NCBI GenBank assembly: GCA_021790425.1
Contig: JAJYEA010000019.1
Location: forward strand, 1-35,480
Length of the DNA: 35,480 bases
Direction of reading: 5' to 3'
Origin: Thermoplasmata archaeon
GTDB lineage: Archaea; Thermoplasmatota; Thermoplasmata; Lutacidiplasmatales; UBA184
Notes under the pieces: generated by a model
What the model saw: the letters and a program-made list of their open reading frames with translations, nothing else
The model's database searches: none
What the model was told of the DNA's origin: nothing
Position numbers and translations under genes: made by a program
Shown: one piece after another, positions 7,189-27,003 of the stretch
How positions within the stretch are numbered: the stretch's first letter is position 1
How the letters are laid out: the number at the start of each line of letters is the position of its first letter

Positions 7189-8388
7189 TCAGAAGGTGGT
7201 GACCTTCTGCGCCATCAGGAGGCTGGGGACGCTGCTGGCGTTCGCGAGCCACCGGTCGGCGACCTCGCGGGCCCCCTTGCTCACCTTCTCGAAGTTCGTC
7301 CCGTTCGCGGGCAGGAGGTTCACGGTCGCTACTTGGGGCTGGTCGATCGAGCGCCCGATCTGCGAGAGGATCCGGACGTGGACCTCCCGCACATCCCCCT
7401 TCGCCTCGCGGACGATGTCGTCGGCGATGCGGTTCGCCAGGATGTTGTAGATCTTCCCCACGTGCGTGACGGGGTTCTTGCCGCTCGCGGCCTCCATGCT
7501 CATGGGGCGGTACGGGGTGATGAGGCCGTTGGCCCGGTTGCCCCGGCCGGTCGATCCGTCATCGCCGTTCTCCATGGAGAGGCCGGTGACGGTGAGGTAG
7601 AACACGTTGTGCTTGTAGTTGTCCCCCGTGTTGACGGAGACCTTGACCTCGCGCTTGGTGAGATGGGTGGCGTTGTCGGCCACCTTGCTCGTGATCTCCT
7701 GGATGAGGTTGATGTACTCCTCCTTGCCCTTCACGTGCTGTCCCACGAGGGCGGCGGCCACGGTGAGCTCGATCTTCCCGTCCCGGCGGCAGCCCATGAC
7801 CTTGACGTCTTTCCCGAGGGCCTTCATCGTCTTCGCGAGGCGCAGGGTCAGGAACTTCTCCGTCTCCAGCACGAGGGTCTCTGTCTCCGAGAAGGGGGCG
7901 AAGCCGCATCCGAACGAGGTGTCGTTGGCGAGGTAGCCCTCCTGGGCGAAGACGCCCTTGAGGTCGACGGAGCCTTCCCCGAGCAGGCACTGCACCGTCA
8001 CGGTCTTGGAGAGGTCCACGTCGGGGACCACGGTGGCGAGGTAGTCCGTCGCCGCCTTTGTCACGAGCTCCTTGTACGGCAGCTTCTCGCCGTTGATCTG
8101 GGTGGTCGCCCGGCCCACCAGGGCGAGGGTCGCGGGGCGAAGGATCTTCCCGCCGGCAAAGGCGGGCTCGGCCTGGCCTCCCACGATGTGGGTCTCATCG
8201 GTGTTGTGATGGAGGATGCTGCCGGTCTTCTCAGTGTAAAGCTTCGAAAGCGCGCGGCTCACGGACTCGGAGATGCCGTCGCAGAGGCTGTCGGGGTGGC
8301 CGATCCCCTTCCGCTCCACGAATTCGACTTCCCGGTCCTCGATGTACTGCGCGTTCAGCGGTTCTAGAGCGATATTTCTCTGGGTCAT
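7189..8388 (-). CDS. metK: S-adenosylmethionine synthetase, archaeal type
   Basis: This enzyme makes S-adenosylmethionine from methionine and ATP. It is the archaeal family, not bacterial MetK. It has [15 protein letters not shown] near the start, [10 protein letters not shown] in the middle, [11 protein letters not shown] and [18 protein letters not shown] near the ATP/phosphate site, and ends in KVTTF exactly as I recall for the Methanocaldococcus enzyme. The ATG at 8388 gives 399 residues, normal for the family. A GTG at 8400 would add four residues and would fit a leaderless start from the TATA box at 8424-8431. The gene product would supply the three methyltransferases encoded or implied nearby, though that is general metabolism rather than an operon link. 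Confidence 0.95.
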
Positions 8389-21207: not shown

Positions 21208-22023
21208 TTGACGACCGATGATGATCCATTGACACCGCGACTCGTGGTCTCGAAAGATACCTCCGGGTACACCCCTGCCGAGCTCGATCAACTGCGGAAG
21301 GAGATCGAGGCGATCCCGTGGTGGCATCGCATTCAGGTCGGTCCCTTCGTCACCCCGGGCCGCGCCAGCCACTATGCCCAGGACTGGATCGCCTCCCGGC
21401 TCCCGGCCAGCCTGGCGGGAAAGTCCGTGCTCGATATCGGTGCCTGGGATGGGTACTTCAGCTTCCTGGCCGAGGAACGCGGGGCCCGACGTGTCCTCGC
21501 GGTGGACAACCTGAAGAATCCGGAGGCCCACCCGAAAGGGTCCGCAAGCTTCGAGCTGGCGAAACGGGTGCGGAAGTCCAAGGTCGAGTTCCAGATACTC
21601 GACGTCTACGACTGCGACCGGCTCCAGGAGAAGTTCGACGTGATCCTCTTCCTCGGCGTCTACTACCACCTCCACAGCCCGATCTATGCCTTGGAGAAGA
21701 TCCGCCATGTGCTCGCTCCCGGGGGCTCGGTCTTCATGGAAGGGATGGTCCGGCCGGGGGGTGAGCCCTCCGTGTACGTCCTCAACGATGCGGATTATGG
21801 CCCCACCAACCACTCGAACCCCACGGTCGCGGCCGTCGAGCGGATGGCCCTCAAGGCGGGATTCACCTCGGTGAGGACCGTCCATCTCAACTATGGCGGA
21901 GGCTGGGGGCCCAAGCTCTTCGGCCGCCGGATCCGTCCGTCGAACTGGAATCGCGTCATGCATCTCGCGTATGCGCTCCACGTCCGGAGCCAGGCCTACC
22001 GGGGTCTCTTCGAGCTCCGCTGA
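21208..22023 (+). CDS. SAM-dependent methyltransferase, CmoB/DUF1698-like
   Basis: This 271-residue methyltransferase has SAM motif I VLDIGAWDGYFSF (74-86) and motif II AVDN. An FDVILFLGVYYHLHSPI segment and a VYVLNDADYGPTN...NPTVAAVERM segment follow. That layout matches the CmoB family, which transfers carboxymethyl or methyl groups to wobble uridine-5-oxy in bacterial tRNA. In archaea such homologues are usually uncharacterised, and some act on small molecules, so a tRNA role is only a possibility. The start is a TTG at 21208; TTG 21229 or GTG 21244 are alternatives. It is divergent from surface protein D with its own promoter and stands alone. Confidence 0.8.
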   Translation: MTTDDDPLTPRLVVSKDTSGYTPAELDQLRKEIEAIPWWHRIQVGPFVTPGRASHYAQDWIASRLPASLAGKSVLDIGAWDGYFSFLAEERGARRVLAVDNLKNPEAHPKGSASFELAKRVRKSKVEFQILDVYDCDRLQEKFDVILFLGVYYHLHSPIYALEKIRHVLAPGGSVFMEGMVRPGGEPSVYVLNDADYGPTNHSNPTVAAVERMALKAGFTSVRTVHLNYGGGWGPKLFGRRIRPSNWNRVMHLAYALHVRSQAYRGLFELR

Positions 22024-22100: not shown

Positions 22101-22688
22101 ATGTCGAATCATCCGGTCTTCTTCGGAAGCCCTTCCCCGCCTCCCCGAGGGATCTCGGTCGATGTCGCGACCCCGGGCCGTGCGTACAGCCCGGACGTCC
22201 AGCGGCGGTACGCGACGGCGCTGGAGGCGGCCGATGGGTTCGATTCCATCTTCCGGATCGTCCGCGAGGTGGTGCGGAACGTCCTGGGACGGGAGCGGAC
22301 GGGGTTGGGCCTCGCCCTCTCCGACCTTCCCTCCGGGATCGGGGCGTACTGGCCCGTCACGGGCAACGTGATCGTGATGAACGAGCCGCTCGTCCGGGCC
22401 ATGAAGGCGATGGCGTCGTCGCCGGCGGAGTTCAACTCCTTCGTCTTCGTGATCCTGGCCCACGAGTACCTGCACTCCCTCGGATACTGGGGAGAGGATC
22501 CCGTGCGGCGGGTCACCGCCCAGGTCGTCCGCACGACCTTCGGGCCCGACCACGTCGCGACGGCCATGGCCGAGGGCGACCTGTGGCAGATGTACCCCTT
22601 CCTCCGGATGGCCCACGGCGGTGACGGTTCCCGGATCCGGATGGTGAGCCGGTTCGACTCGGACACCACCTCGGCCTACATCCGCTGA
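22101..22688 (+). CDS. Putative zinc metalloprotease (HExxH), family not recognised
   Basis: This 195-residue soluble protein has no signal peptide or membrane segment. A helix with HEYLHSLGYWGE (121-132) gives the HExxH zinc motif, with E132 as a possible third ligand; a more distant acidic residue in AEGDLW is another. The N-terminal half is alpha-helical with GLALSDLPSGIGAYWPVTGNV before a strand (VIVMNE), like the edge strand that precedes the active-site helix of gluzincin/minigluzincin folds. No family name can be given. The ATG at 22101 is supported by a TATA box 25.5 nt upstream. It precedes the AIM24 cluster on the same strand but is separated from it by a hairpin and a new promoter. 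Confidence 0.7.
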   Translation: MSNHPVFFGSPSPPPRGISVDVATPGRAYSPDVQRRYATALEAADGFDSIFRIVREVVRNVLGRERTGLGLALSDLPSGIGAYWPVTGNVIVMNEPLVRAMKAMASSPAEFNSFVFVILAHEYLHSLGYWGEDPVRRVTAQVVRTTFGPDHVATAMAEGDLWQMYPFLRMAHGGDGSRIRMVSRFDSDTTSAYIR

Positions 22689-22727: not shown

Positions 22728-22735
22728 TATAATAT
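22728..22735 (+). promoter_or_regulatory. TATA box of the AIM24/zinc-ribbon operon
   Basis: TATAATAT is centred about 39 nt before the GTG start at 22770, giving a leader of about 13 nt. No comparable element occurs before the next three genes, so they are probably one transcript. Confidence 0.65.
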
Positions 22736-22769
22736 CGGCTGGGCCTTATCGAGCAGTGGGTCCTGTCCA

Positions 22770-23420
22770 GTGCAGCTCGAGGACATCAAAGGTCTGGTTC
22801 CCACCGTCCTAGCGACGTTGGCGCCTCAGGAGTCCATCTACTGTGAGCATGGGATCATGCTCTTCAAGGACCCGACCGTCTCCGTGGGCCGCAAGACGGT
22901 CCAAGGCGGCGGCCTCCTCAAGACGATGGAGCGGACCACGGTGGGCGGCATCCCCTTCTTCCTCACGGAGTTCATCGGCCCGGGCCAGGTGGGACTCTCC
23001 CGGGACGGGGTCGGCGAGCTGCGGGTCATCGAGCTCGCCCCGAACGAGGTCCTCGACGTCTTCGAGGGCTCGCTCCTGTGCGCCGAGGCCCACGTCCCCT
23101 ACGACATGCTCTACGTCAAGGGCACGAACCGGCCCGGCCGCATCGTGGGGTTCTGGATGGACCGGCTCACCGGACCCGGCAAGATCGCGCTCCACGGGTA
23201 CGGGAACATCATCTCCTTCACGCTGGCCCCTCAGGAGGTCGTCACGTGCGACATGGGGGCCCTGCTCTACAAGAGCGGGAGCGTGCAGGCCGTGACCAAG
23301 AACCTGCCCTTCGGGAGCGGGCTCCTGGGCAAGCTCGAGTCCGTGGAGGTCCTCGAGCTCATCGGGCCGGGCAAGGTGGCCCTGCAGAGCATCGACCCCC
23401 GACAACCCAATCATTCCTGA
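22770..23420 (+). CDS. AIM24 family protein (paralog 1)
   Basis: This 216-residue all-beta protein is of the AIM24 (DUF124) family, which forms a double-stranded beta-helix fold of unknown biochemical role. It has no membrane segment. Three GPG turns recur at corresponding places: FIGPGQVGLSR, LTGPGKIALHGYGN and LIGPGKVALQS. They separate roughly 70-residue pseudo-repeats, and MLYVKGTNRPGR...FWMDRL marks the centre. It is the first gene of a compact run with a zinc ribbon and two more AIM24 paralogs; the next start is 20 bp downstream. It is closest to paralog 3 (shared FWMDRL..GPG and HGYGN). The GTG start fits the TATA position. Family assignment is confident; function is not known. Confidence 0.85.
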   Translation: MQLEDIKGLVPTVLATLAPQESIYCEHGIMLFKDPTVSVGRKTVQGGGLLKTMERTTVGGIPFFLTEFIGPGQVGLSRDGVGELRVIELAPNEVLDVFEGSLLCAEAHVPYDMLYVKGTNRPGRIVGFWMDRLTGPGKIALHGYGNIISFTLAPQEVVTCDMGALLYKSGSVQAVTKNLPFGSGLLGKLESVEVLELIGPGKVALQSIDPRQPNHS

Positions 23421-23440
23421 GGTGCCACAGAGGAACGCAG

Positions 23441-23623
23441 ATGCCGATACCAGAAGAATTCGTCAAGAAGCGAACGGAGGTCACCATCAGCCGCGCGTCG
23501 CTCAAGGAGATCAATTGCAAGAGCTGCGGGGCCAAGGTGGGGCCGGAAAACATCCGCAACGGCGTGGCGAAGTGCGCCTACTGCGGTGCCAGCTACGCGC
23601 TCGCCGTCGAGGGAGCGGAGTAG
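23441..23623 (+). CDS. Small zinc-ribbon protein within the AIM24 operon
   Basis: The 60-residue protein has two CxxC pairs, C26-C29 (CKSCG) and C45-C48 (CAYCG). They are separated by 15 residues, a classic rubredoxin-type zinc ribbon. The N-terminus (PEEFVKKRTEVTISRASLKEI) is charged. It lies 20 bp after AIM24 paralog 1 and 10 bp before paralog 2. An AGAGG-like ribosome-binding stretch sits about 10 nt before its ATG. It may be a metal-binding adaptor or a nucleic-acid-binding partner of the AIM24 proteins; that is inference from the operon alone. Confidence 0.8.
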   Translation: MPIPEEFVKKRTEVTISRASLKEINCKSCGAKVGPENIRNGVAKCAYCGASYALAVEGAE

Positions 23624-23633
23624 GGGAACCACC

Positions 23634-24389
23634 GTGCGCGCCGATACCGTCGGAGGCATCACCCCCGCCGTCCTCGTGAACCTCGCTCCCGGCGAGAAGA
23701 TCCTCGCGGCGCACGAGATCATGCTGTACAAGGAGCCGCAGATCCAGCTCCACCGGCGCACGATGAAGTCGCTCGGGGTGAACACCTCCCACCTCATGGC
23801 GATGCGGGGACGCGGTGACTCCGAAGAGGGCTACTTCTTCGCCGAGTTCGAGGGTCCGGGCCACGTCTCGTTCTCCCGGGACAAGGGAGGCGAGGTGCGC
23901 ATCCAGCACCTCCAGCCCGGCGAGACCATCCGCCTCCGCAGCGGCCACCTGATGTGCTTCGATGAGAGCGTGCGCTACTATCCGATGGTGCAGGGGCAGT
24001 GGTACACGACGAATGCGAACGGGGATCAGGAGACCCACTACCTCTTCGCCGACGAGCTCACGGGTCCCGGCACGATCGTCTACCAGTCCCACGGCAACCT
24101 CCTGTCCTTCAGCCTCCGCCCCGGGGAGCGGATGCGCACCTCGGTCCTCGGCCTGCTCGCGACCTCGAACACGGTGCAGCTGGCCATCAACTGGCTCATC
24201 GGGGGCTCGACCGTGAGCGCCTCCAACCGGGGATTCGGGTCCCTGATGGGGGGCGGCGGCGGGCTCCTCGGCGCGGCCCTCCAGGCCGCGGCGGGAGGGG
24301 GAGGCGCCGGTGTCTCCTCCGGGGGCGTGCAGATCCCCGTGATCGATCTCGTGGGGCCGGGGACCGTGGTCGTCCACAGCGGGGTGTAG
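23634..24389 (+). CDS. AIM24 family protein (paralog 2, with glycine-rich insertion)
   Basis: This 251-residue protein starts at a GTG 10 bp after the zinc-ribbon stop. It has the same three-part layout as paralogs 1 and 3, with GPG turns in FEGPGHVSFSR, LTGPGTIVYQSHGN and LVGPGTVVVHSG. It differs in having a longer loop around 49-65 and a flexible insertion (about 200-232) very rich in Gly and Ala between the second and third repeats. Such an insertion could expose a loop or mediate assembly. Its N-terminal half is otherwise well conserved (LAPGEKILAAHEIMLYK). Role unknown. Confidence 0.85.
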   Translation: MRADTVGGITPAVLVNLAPGEKILAAHEIMLYKEPQIQLHRRTMKSLGVNTSHLMAMRGRGDSEEGYFFAEFEGPGHVSFSRDKGGEVRIQHLQPGETIRLRSGHLMCFDESVRYYPMVQGQWYTTNANGDQETHYLFADELTGPGTIVYQSHGNLLSFSLRPGERMRTSVLGLLATSNTVQLAINWLIGGSTVSASNRGFGSLMGGGGGLLGAALQAAAGGGGAGVSSGGVQIPVIDLVGPGTVVVHSGV

Positions 24390-24395
24390 GAACCG

Positions 24396-25049
24396 ATGCA
24401 GATCGATGTCAAGGGGGATTTCATTCCGTCCGCCCTCGTGCAGCTCAACCCCGGCGAGCAGATCTATTGCGAGGGGGGGCTCATGGTCTACAGCGACCCC
24501 ACCATCAACTTCTCGTACAAGTGGATGACCCAGGGAGGGCTCGGTCAGGCCATGCGCCGGAGCCTTCTCGGCGGGCTCCCGTTCCACCAGCACGTCTACA
24601 CGGGTCCGGGGTACGTGGCCTTCAGCCGGTTGCGCCCCGGGGAGCTCCGGGTGCTCGAGCTTGCGCCGGGCCAGGTCGTCGACATCGCCGAGCATTCCCT
24701 CCTCCTCGCGACGAACACCGTCGCGTACGAGACCTTCTACGTCAAGGGGACGGGCCGGATCGGACGGATGATGGGGTTCTGGATGGACCGCCTGCGCGGT
24801 CCGGGGACCATCGTCTACCACGGCTACGGGAACATCCTCAAGTTCACGCTCAAGCCCGGCGAGGCCACCGACATCGACCACGGTGCGCTCCTCCTCAAGG
24901 ACGCGTCGGTCGCCGTACAGGCGTACAACCAGCCCCTCGGCAGCGGGCTCACGGGCCATGCCCTGAGCTTCGAGGCCATCCGGGTCACCGGCCCGGGCGC
25001 GCTGCAGCTCCAGACCGTGGACCCCACCCGGGGATCCGGCGGGGAGTAG
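24396..25049 (+). CDS. AIM24 family protein (paralog 3)
   Basis: This 217-residue AIM24 protein starts 6 bp after paralog 2. It has the LNPGEQIYCEGGLMVYSDP segment near the start, matched by LAPQESIYCEHGIMLFKDP in paralog 1. Its GPG turns are YTGPGYVAFSR, LRGPGTIVYHGYGN and VTGPGALQLQT. The central YVKGTGRIGRMMGFWMDRL closely follows paralog 1, so these two are the nearer pair and may be the result of a duplication. No membrane or signal sequence is seen. Confidence 0.85.
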   Translation: MQIDVKGDFIPSALVQLNPGEQIYCEGGLMVYSDPTINFSYKWMTQGGLGQAMRRSLLGGLPFHQHVYTGPGYVAFSRLRPGELRVLELAPGQVVDIAEHSLLLATNTVAYETFYVKGTGRIGRMMGFWMDRLRGPGTIVYHGYGNILKFTLKPGEATDIDHGALLLKDASVAVQAYNQPLGSGLTGHALSFEAIRVTGPGALQLQTVDPTRGSGGE

Positions 25050-25074: not shown

Positions 25075-25686
25075 GTGGAAACCTTTAGCTCCTCCGTGAC
25101 CTACCCTGCCGCCGTGCCCCGGGCGAGGAGAGCAGCGAACGAGCCGCCGAGGGAGTTCGCCATCGACCGCACGCTCGGACCGGGCCGCCATCCTCTTCTC
25201 GCCGTCTTCCCGGGGCTGGACCGCCTGCCCGCCTTCTCCGCCGTGGCCAAGCGTCACCCGGACGGCGAGAAGGACCTGGTCCGGGTCGCGATCGAGCTGG
25301 TCTCGGACGACATCTGGATGTACGTGGCGCCCACCGCCCGGCCCCCGGACGCCCCCCCGGAGTGGACCCCCGTCATCGCGAAGGACGCGGACGTGATCGT
25401 CGTGGGCCTCTCGCACCTGCGGGAGAGCCCGGCGATCCTCCTCTACCTCGACATCCTCCACGAGCTCTGCCACATCGCGCAGCGCCGGCGCGGTCTCGAC
25501 CTCTGGGACCGGCGCTACGGGTACGTCGACCGTCCTACCGAGGTCGAGGCCTACGAGTTCGTGATCGAGGAGGCCCGGCGCCTCGGGGCCACCAAGCCCT
25601 TCCTCCGGGAGTACCTGCGCGTCGAGTGGGTCTCCGAGGAGGACTACCAGCGTCTCCTGGACAAGATGGGCCTCTCCGAGGGGTAG
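25075..25686 (+). CDS. Putative ImmA/IrrE-like zinc metallopeptidase
   Basis: The 203-residue protein contains HELCH (129-133) followed about 23 residues later by TEVEAYEF (155-162). This spacing and the ExEAxxF sequence resemble the HExxH...ExEAxxFA arrangement of the ImmA/IrrE (DUF955) peptidases, with a later glutamate as likely third zinc ligand. No helix-turn-helix domain is fused to it. The N-terminal 40 residues are basic and probably flexible. It starts 25 bp after AIM24 paralog 3. A GTG at 25114 is an alternative start, supported by a weak TATA (CCTTTAG near 25084). The signal-peptidase gene begins 3 bp after its stop. ImmA-type enzymes usually cut one regulator in response to a signal; the target here is unknown. 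Confidence 0.72.
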   Translation: METFSSSVTYPAAVPRARRAANEPPREFAIDRTLGPGRHPLLAVFPGLDRLPAFSAVAKRHPDGEKDLVRVAIELVSDDIWMYVAPTARPPDAPPEWTPVIAKDADVIVVGLSHLRESPAILLYLDILHELCHIAQRRRGLDLWDRRYGYVDRPTEVEAYEFVIEEARRLGATKPFLREYLRVEWVSEEDYQRLLDKMGLSEG

Positions 25687-25689
25687 TGC

Positions 25690-27003
25690 ATGCCGCACGC
25701 GGGGAAGTTCCAATGGCCGGCCGGGCTCCGCCGCTTCGTCCGCTCCGCCTGGTTCGAGCCCCTGGTGAGCGTCCTGGTCATCGTGGCGATCATCCTCTCC
25801 CTCTACGCCTACACCGACAACTGGCCGCCCATGGTGGTGGTCGAGTCCGACAGCATGCAGCACGGGATGAACGACGTGGTGGGGGTCATCAACACCGGGG
25901 ACATCGTGCTCGTCCAGAAGACCACGGTCCCGGACGACGTGACGACGTACGTGATGGGGGAGCAGAACGGGTACTCCACCTACGGGGAGTACGGGGACGT
26001 CCTCCTCTACTACAAGAACGGGAACTCGGGTCCGGGCAGCACCCCAGTCATCCACCGGGCCATGGTCTGGCTCACCTACACTGGCACCCAGGGAATCCCG
26101 GGAAGCCAGGGGTTCGAGATCCCCTCGCTCGTCGGCCTCTCCTGCCCGACGCAGTACGAGCTGCTCTCCCCGGGAGTGTCCACGCCCCATTGCCTGTCGA
26201 ACTCCGCCCCGGACGCTCCCCAGCTGGGCGAGCTTCGCCTCTTCCACGTGGGCTACAACAACATCAACGTCACGATCGACCTCTCGACCCTCGCAACGTA
26301 CGAGCCCTGGTCGGGCTTCATCACCCTCGGGGACAACAACGACGGGACGTACGACCAGACCTGGGAGGGGGGAGGATGCGCCATCTCCTGCATCGTGCAG
26401 GCGAGCTGGGTCGTCGGGGTCGCCCGGGGGATGATCCCCTGGTTCGGGGCCCTGAAGCTGTGGATCGACGGCAACAGCGGGATGGTCCCCTCCCAGTCCT
26501 GGGACTACCTGGCCCTCTCGATCATCGCGATCATCCTGCTCCCCCAGGCCGTCCCGTGGATCATCCGCCGGTTGCGCAGCGACTCCGTCGCCCATCGCAC
26601 CCGTCCCCGGGGACCGGCCGTCGAGGGCACCGGCGGGACGTCTTCCCCGGTCGCCTGGGACGAGGTCACGCGCCTGACCTTCGTCGCCGAGCCCGCCGGC
26701 TACCGTCTTGCGACCGTGGACTACGGTGTCCCCCAACCCCGATTCTTCGGGGGGACGCGTCTCGAACTGACGGCGGACTCCCCCGATCTCATGGTGGACG
26801 CCCTGCGCGACGCGCGGACGGGGGGACGTCCCGTCCCGGTCGGGACCGCGCTCCGCGACGGCGCTTCCTTCGCGATCGAACCGCCGGACCACGTGGAGAT
26901 CGTCCAGGAGCGCGCGGGGATCGTCGTCCAGGTCGGCGAGCGACCGATATCGCGCCGGAACGGCGCCCGGCTCCCGAACGGAGCTCCGGCCGGCTCCCGG
27001 TGA
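25690..27003 (+). CDS. Signal peptidase I, archaeal S26B type, with C-terminal cytoplasmic extension
   Basis: A 437-residue membrane protease that removes signal peptides from exported proteins. TM1 (about 24-41) is followed by the catalytic serine in VESDSMQHG (S55), GDIVLVQ, GDVLLYY and the catalytic histidine in PVIHRAM (H122). The GDNND box (214-218) and VGVARGMIPWFGALKLW belong to the S26B family, which uses Ser-His rather than the bacterial Ser-Lys dyad. A second transmembrane helix is at about 272-290. The insert of roughly 80 residues between the histidine and GDNN boxes and a C-terminal region of about 145 residues make it more than twice the usual archaeal length. It starts 3 bp after the ImmA-like gene. 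Confidence 0.85.
   Translation: MPHAGKFQWPAGLRRFVRSAWFEPLVSVLVIVAIILSLYAYTDNWPPMVVVESDSMQHGMNDVVGVINTGDIVLVQKTTVPDDVTTYVMGEQNGYSTYGEYGDVLLYYKNGNSGPGSTPVIHRAMVWLTYTGTQGIPGSQGFEIPSLVGLSCPTQYELLSPGVSTPHCLSNSAPDAPQLGELRLFHVGYNNINVTIDLSTLATYEPWSGFITLGDNNDGTYDQTWEGGGCAISCIVQASWVVGVARGMIPWFGALKLWIDGNSGMVPSQSWDYLALSIIAIILLPQAVPWIIRRLRSDSVAHRTRPRGPAVEGTGGTSSPVAWDEVTRLTFVAEPAGYRLATVDYGVPQPRFFGGTRLELTADSPDLMVDALRDARTGGRPVPVGTALRDGASFAIEPPDHVEIVQERAGIVVQVGERPISRRNGARLPNGAPAGSR

Follow-up and report, generated by a model that had tools for sequence, protein, structure and literature searches.

A compact run of four genes in the genome of a Thermoplasmata archaeon, coding for three divergent AIM24-family proteins (A1, A2 and A3) and a small zinc ribbon (Z), is one inherited module, as shown by its constant gene set, the orthology of its members and their co-occurrence. 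The best explanation of this module is a hetero-oligomeric scaffold complex with Z as shared accessory subunit, a reading that we consider reasonably probable and for which we infer physical contact, stoichiometry and the scaffold role. AIM24 proteins are present in all domains of life and, to our knowledge, none has a settled biochemical role. The subunits belong to this known domain family, and the block suggests an undescribed protein complex in a soil archaeal order. PMC6393860 lists one AIM24 protein among the archaeal genes that are widespread but uncharacterised. The literature searched yielded no account of an operon with several AIM24 genes, and AIM24 is absent from the main text of the paper on the order Lutacidiplasmatales (PMC9287336).

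The block lies on the + strand of the window, by which is meant the whole analysed stretch of 35,480 nucleotides (contig JAJYEA010000019.1). A1 (22770-23420; 216 aa, GTG start) is followed by Z (23441-23623; 60 aa), A2 (23634-24389; 251 aa, GTG start) and A3 (24396-25049; 217 aa). The genes are separated by exactly 20, 10 and 6 bp, as the initial annotation had described. It had also proposed a single promoter, and here the relatives agree with it. The TATA box TATAATAT (22728-22735, + strand) stands at -42 from the A1 start, and the run contains no other promoter-like element. Across 33 relatives, the block's first gene is preceded by an AT-rich peak (about -46 to -38), which the 102 internal block genes lack. 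Because the peak precedes the first gene and not the internal ones, transcription of the A1-Z-A2-A3 run from a single promoter is well supported.

The three AIM24 assignments proved robust. Against PF01987 (AIM24/DUF124; arCOG01907 in archaea), A1, A2 and A3 gave E-values of 2.1e-32, 1.8e-21 and 1.2e-31 and scores of 113, 77.3 and 110.4 bits, far above the Pfam cut-off of 25.7 bits, and the matches ran from profile position 8 or 9 to 204 of 205. They are the sole AIM24 genes of this 2.5 Mb genome and are divergent, as had been claimed, with pairwise identities of 49% (A1/A3), 37% (A1/A2) and 34% (A2/A3), A2 being the most divergent paralogue. Although they match the full family profile, they differ from ordinary AIM24 proteins: they score 77-113 bits, where most ordinary ones of the phylum reach about 170-268, and they remain far under the cut-off of TIGR00266, the ordinary prokaryotic subfamily (96.6 bits; A1 31.8, A3 40, A2 no match). 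They also share three GPG motifs and form a clade of their own.

These motifs are invariant near residues 70, 135 and 200 (70, 135 and 199 in A1), with positions in A2 shifted by insertions; the A2 of the window's genome carries a Gly-rich insertion ahead of the third repeat. Such spacing is consistent with three internal repeats in each subunit. Through structural comparison of models of A1 and A2 orthologues, the AIM24 domains were found to match the solved AIM24 structures 1pg6 and 1yox, with Foldseek E-values down to 1e-11 and TM-scores, by target length, of 0.69-0.76, and to have the all-beta fold of these structures. None of the four proteins contains a long hydrophobic stretch, the best 19-residue hydropathy being 1.37 (A2), so that all four products should be cytoplasmic, with membrane association by other means a possibility.

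The three paralogues were placed in two phylogenetic trees. The A2 orthologues form a single clade with support of 100/99 or better in both; those of A3 form one in the smaller tree (98/90), the larger tree leaving A3 unresolved; and those of A1 are nearly one clade, with the distant locus L123 as the one uncertain placement in the smaller tree. Together, A1, A2 and A3 stand apart both from the phylum's ordinary AIM24 proteins and from those borne on bacterial plasmids (96/93). A simple tandem duplication in this genome was ruled out, because all three lineages are ancient and occur across genera. Plasmid-borne AIM24 was also considered as a source of the block and rejected, all six plasmid-borne genes examined being solitary.

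The distribution of the block was traced through Z. Two short peptide patterns, which a strongly divergent Z could escape, were run against the GTDB species collection and returned 37 loci, nearly all from Thermoplasmata, including 'Candidatus Lutacidiplasma silvani' (of the window's family; L111, a contig of G391) and one locus (L123, genome G038) from a different family of the same order. When 390 genomes of the phylum were searched with a profile, full-length Z was confined to this order; the organism accordingly belongs to the Lutacidiplasmatales (PMC9287336) or lies near them. The initial annotation had asked whether the arrangement recurs, on the understanding that one unique to this genome, together with a complex prediction free of interfaces, would favour mere duplication; the same four genes stand side by side on a single strand at 35 of the 37 loci as well as in the window, which excludes uniqueness. 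Two arrangements were distinguished, namely type I (A1-Z-A2-A3), which the window shares with 27 loci, and type II (Z-A1-A2-A3), present at eight loci, with gaps between block genes of -4 to 62 bp. Type II members form their own groups within A1 and within A2 (100/100 each), and no locus combines members of the two types. In the remaining two loci, both of genus g7, A1 is split off, in one case 7 kb away from Z and in the other on a separate contig; A1-Z adjacency is therefore not strictly needed. The only clear split block (L057, genome G015) has A1 at 7369-8013 and Z at 19-201 on the - strand, with A1 7.2 kb upstream on the same contig.

A census covered 106 genomes belonging to the order (Lutacidiplasmatales with their kin). 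Intact Z was present in 38, all 38 of which carry the block AIM24 genes, and in none of the remaining 68. The co-occurrence of Z and AIM24 is significant by Fisher's test at 1e-29 with kinship ignored, and phyletic linkage extends to all block members. AIM24 genes occurred in 41 of the 106 genomes: 32 have exactly three, four have a double set (six, or six and a fragment), one has three and a fragment, and four have a single gene. In two of these last four, the block is cut by a contig end (G015, G442), and the other two (G445, G450) hold a lone AIM24 of another type. Both lone genes (L140 and L141, from the window's family) are of the bacterial plasmid type, and that of L141 forms the C-terminal portion of an open frame of 726 codons.

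Within genus g4, species that carry the block are interspersed with species that lack it, near-complete genomes such as G007 having no AIM24 at all; gain or loss thus occurred repeatedly and affected the whole set. Genome G017, without AIM24, has a decayed Z that has lost cysteines and is apparently a remnant. Outside the block, no gene family was common to more than four loci; the block thus stays whole in changing surroundings. Flanking genes were ruled out as members of the system, as all neighbours differ between loci. In the window, the block is flanked by two + strand genes (22101-22688 and 25075-25686) whose products each have a motif resembling that of HExxH zinc metallopeptidases (HEYLH and HELCH); these proteins match no significant Pfam family and are not conserved beside the block in relatives. 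Upstream lies a SAM-dependent methyltransferase of the DUF1698 (Methyltransf_9) kind (21208-22023, + strand; Pfam 4.7e-16). Downstream, a 437 aa protein with apparent membrane segments (25690-27003, + strand) has a weak match to TIGR02228, archaeal signal peptidase I (9.5e-4, below the cut-off).

Z consists of a conserved N-terminal tail followed by one CxxC...CxxC ribbon, with invariant Cys 26, 29, 45 and 48, and reaches no Pfam or NCBIfam cut-off. Its tail, residues 1-19 (23441-23497, + strand; MPIPEEFVKKRTEVTISRA), is under the strongest constraint. Among 37 sequences the mean frequency of the major residue is 0.94 in the tail versus 0.68 in the ribbon and 0.63 at the non-cysteine positions of the ribbon, and P2, P4, E6, F7, K9, K10, R11, E13 and T15 are invariant. 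Given this constraint, the tail probably acts as a binding motif, and it is where partner specificity may sit. The small ribbons of LysW, L37Ae and RpoP resemble Z in having a CxxC...CxxC ribbon of about 25 residues and weak profile similarity; however, Z falls far below the curated cut-offs (17.6 bits against 75 for the LysW carrier model NF041070), and no counterpart was found for its tail.

Further insight into Z comes from genomes with two blocks. Both types coexist in four genomes (G021, G429, G439, G440), where the type I block has kept Z in every case, and Z of the type II block is missing upstream (L144, L145, L146) or frame-shifted (L049). By comparison, Z is intact in all eight genomes that have type II alone (G008, G013, G018, G026, G029, G418, G425, G433; Fisher 0.002, kinship uncorrected). 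Since two-block genomes keep Z only in the type I block, the simplest reading is that a single Z probably serves both assemblies in trans. Its loss from second blocks marks Z as a shareable partner and says nothing on what Z connects, the 'adaptor' of the initial annotation being one reading. Two block types with one Z amount to a natural experiment.

A second AIM24 triad was identified in family f29 of the Thermoplasmatota (L131, L132, L133, L139). Like the block, it consists of three different consecutive AIM24 paralogues, each an orthologous set, here on one strand and overlapping head to tail or nearly so. Unlike the block, its members are of the ordinary type, form together one group inside ordinary AIM24 and thus have an independent origin in the tree, and no Z-matching zinc ribbon was seen between or beside them. 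Because adjacent triads evolved twice independently, they are easiest to understand if an AIM24 assembly has three kinds of place.

The proposal that these genes encode a hetero-oligomer in which each member has its own place was weighed against the whole of the evidence. An obligate hetero-complex predicts a recurring gene order, old orthologues, joint gain or loss and a Z tied to the block without exception, and in all these respects the proposal held. Docking of the Z tail is the part that the models did not show. AlphaFold was given the natural read-through fusions A1-Z and Z-A2 of locus L092, with the stop read as a residue and with alignment rows both paired and single. Good folds were obtained for the AIM24 domains (pLDDT mostly above 80), and the ribbon was moderately to well predicted; most of the tail stayed below pLDDT 50 in both models. 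With pTM values of 0.68 and 0.71, the models gave no confident placement of the ribbon against the AIM24 domain. They lend no support to docking of the tail to A1 or A2 alone, although the test is weak, as linkers constrain the chains; the tail may instead dock to A3, to a composite surface formed within the assembly, or to a partner from outside.

Under the favoured explanation, A1, A2 and A3, each a three-repeat beta fold and not interchangeable, would most likely co-assemble, probably 1:1:1, into a soluble, cytoplasmic hetero-oligomer encoded by one inherited module. Z would be its small, shareable accessory subunit, with the ribbon as a folded knob and the near-invariant tail as a putative linear docking motif, which would bind either the assembled AIM24 body or an outside client that Z brings to this body. 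The commitment to a hetero-oligomeric scaffold draws on what other AIM24 proteins do: Neurospora EOP-1 is reported to self-associate in the yeast two-hybrid assay (PMC13075794), yeast Aim24 is reported in a complex of about 400 kDa (PMC3975624), and a scaffolding role has been suggested for AIM24 (PMC6162560). By this analogy, the most natural guess would be a scaffold acting in stress or at the membrane. In practical terms, a module with work divided among three copies and a tied small partner offers a defined four-protein set for joint expression and purification. A stronger version, in which an order-specific cytoplasmic machine would have three AIM24 subunits at fixed positions and an exchangeable Z that serves two paralogous versions per cell through its invariant tail, is put forward more tentatively, its chances lying somewhat under even. 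If it is true, AIM24 proteins in general would be building blocks of oligomers, and the triads of other lineages homologous or convergent versions.

Conservation of an operon can also come from co-regulation of proteins that do not touch. A co-regulated set would comprise three AIM24 homo-oligomers with different ligands, and Z would be an unrelated small regulator or metal chaperone. Operon structure alone fits this alternative, identities of 34-49% leave enough difference for distinct ligands, and the A1-Z and Z-A2 models predicted no interface. Even so, it leaves unexplained that no genome kept only one or two of A1, A2 and A3, that the block types never mix and that a second triad arose independently, and we judge it unlikely, if deserving of consideration. 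Less likely still, at perhaps a slim chance, is that Z is a ribbon binding nucleic acid or RNA polymerase, which would autoregulate the operon or link the AIM24 body with either transcription or translation. The ribbon bears a weak resemblance to ribosomal L37Ae (eL43) and to polymerase subunit P, and the tail includes the basic stretch KKR; such weak similarity is, however, common to all short ribbons, and among the 106 genomes intact Z never occurs without the block AIM24 genes, the sole Z-like remnant without them being decayed.

A counterpart of mitochondrial Aim24, stabilising the respiratory chain around a haem-copper oxidase, is very improbable. The Saccharomyces protein, located at the mitochondrial inner membrane with MICOS and the respiratory supercomplexes, has the same domain, is reported in a large complex (PMC3975624) and supports both MICOS and the respiratory supercomplexes (PMC3975624; Deckers 2014, as cited in PMC5822837). 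Unlike the block proteins, it is mitochondrial and the only AIM24 protein of yeast (PMC6162560). A COX1 match is present in 94 of the 106 genomes; yet no COX1 was found in the window's genome (98.6% complete) or in G038, both of which carry the block, an absence that in drafts is not proof, and G007 (100% complete) and dozens more have COX1 without the block. The block does not track haem-copper oxidase, and the linkage to COX1 expected of a dedicated oxidase stabiliser is absent across the 106 genomes.

Membership in a Ter-type metal or stress system has the slightest of chances: bacterial ter clusters of group I do contain AIM24 genes (PMC5822837) and, like the block, set AIM24 in a conserved neighbourhood of partners, but they have one AIM24 gene where the block has several, TerD is found in none of the 106 genomes, which rules against membership, and no gene of any kind is conserved as a neighbour of the block. 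The metal link also appears on the megaplasmid of Acidithiobacillus caldus SM-1 (L130), where a solitary AIM24 gene directly follows a CusA/CzcA heavy-metal efflux operon. A defence or phage origin was discarded, the AIM24 proteins having no PADLOC or PHROG match and Z only generic ribbon matches.

Ribbons like that of Z were also observed outside the block. In other genomes of the phylum Thermoplasmatota, small membrane proteins of an apparently unnamed family, with no AIM24 link seen (L074-L078, L081, L082, L084), carry a C-terminal Z-like ribbon (CRSCGA...CPYCGxxY), and most of them end in EExPKW, as Z does.
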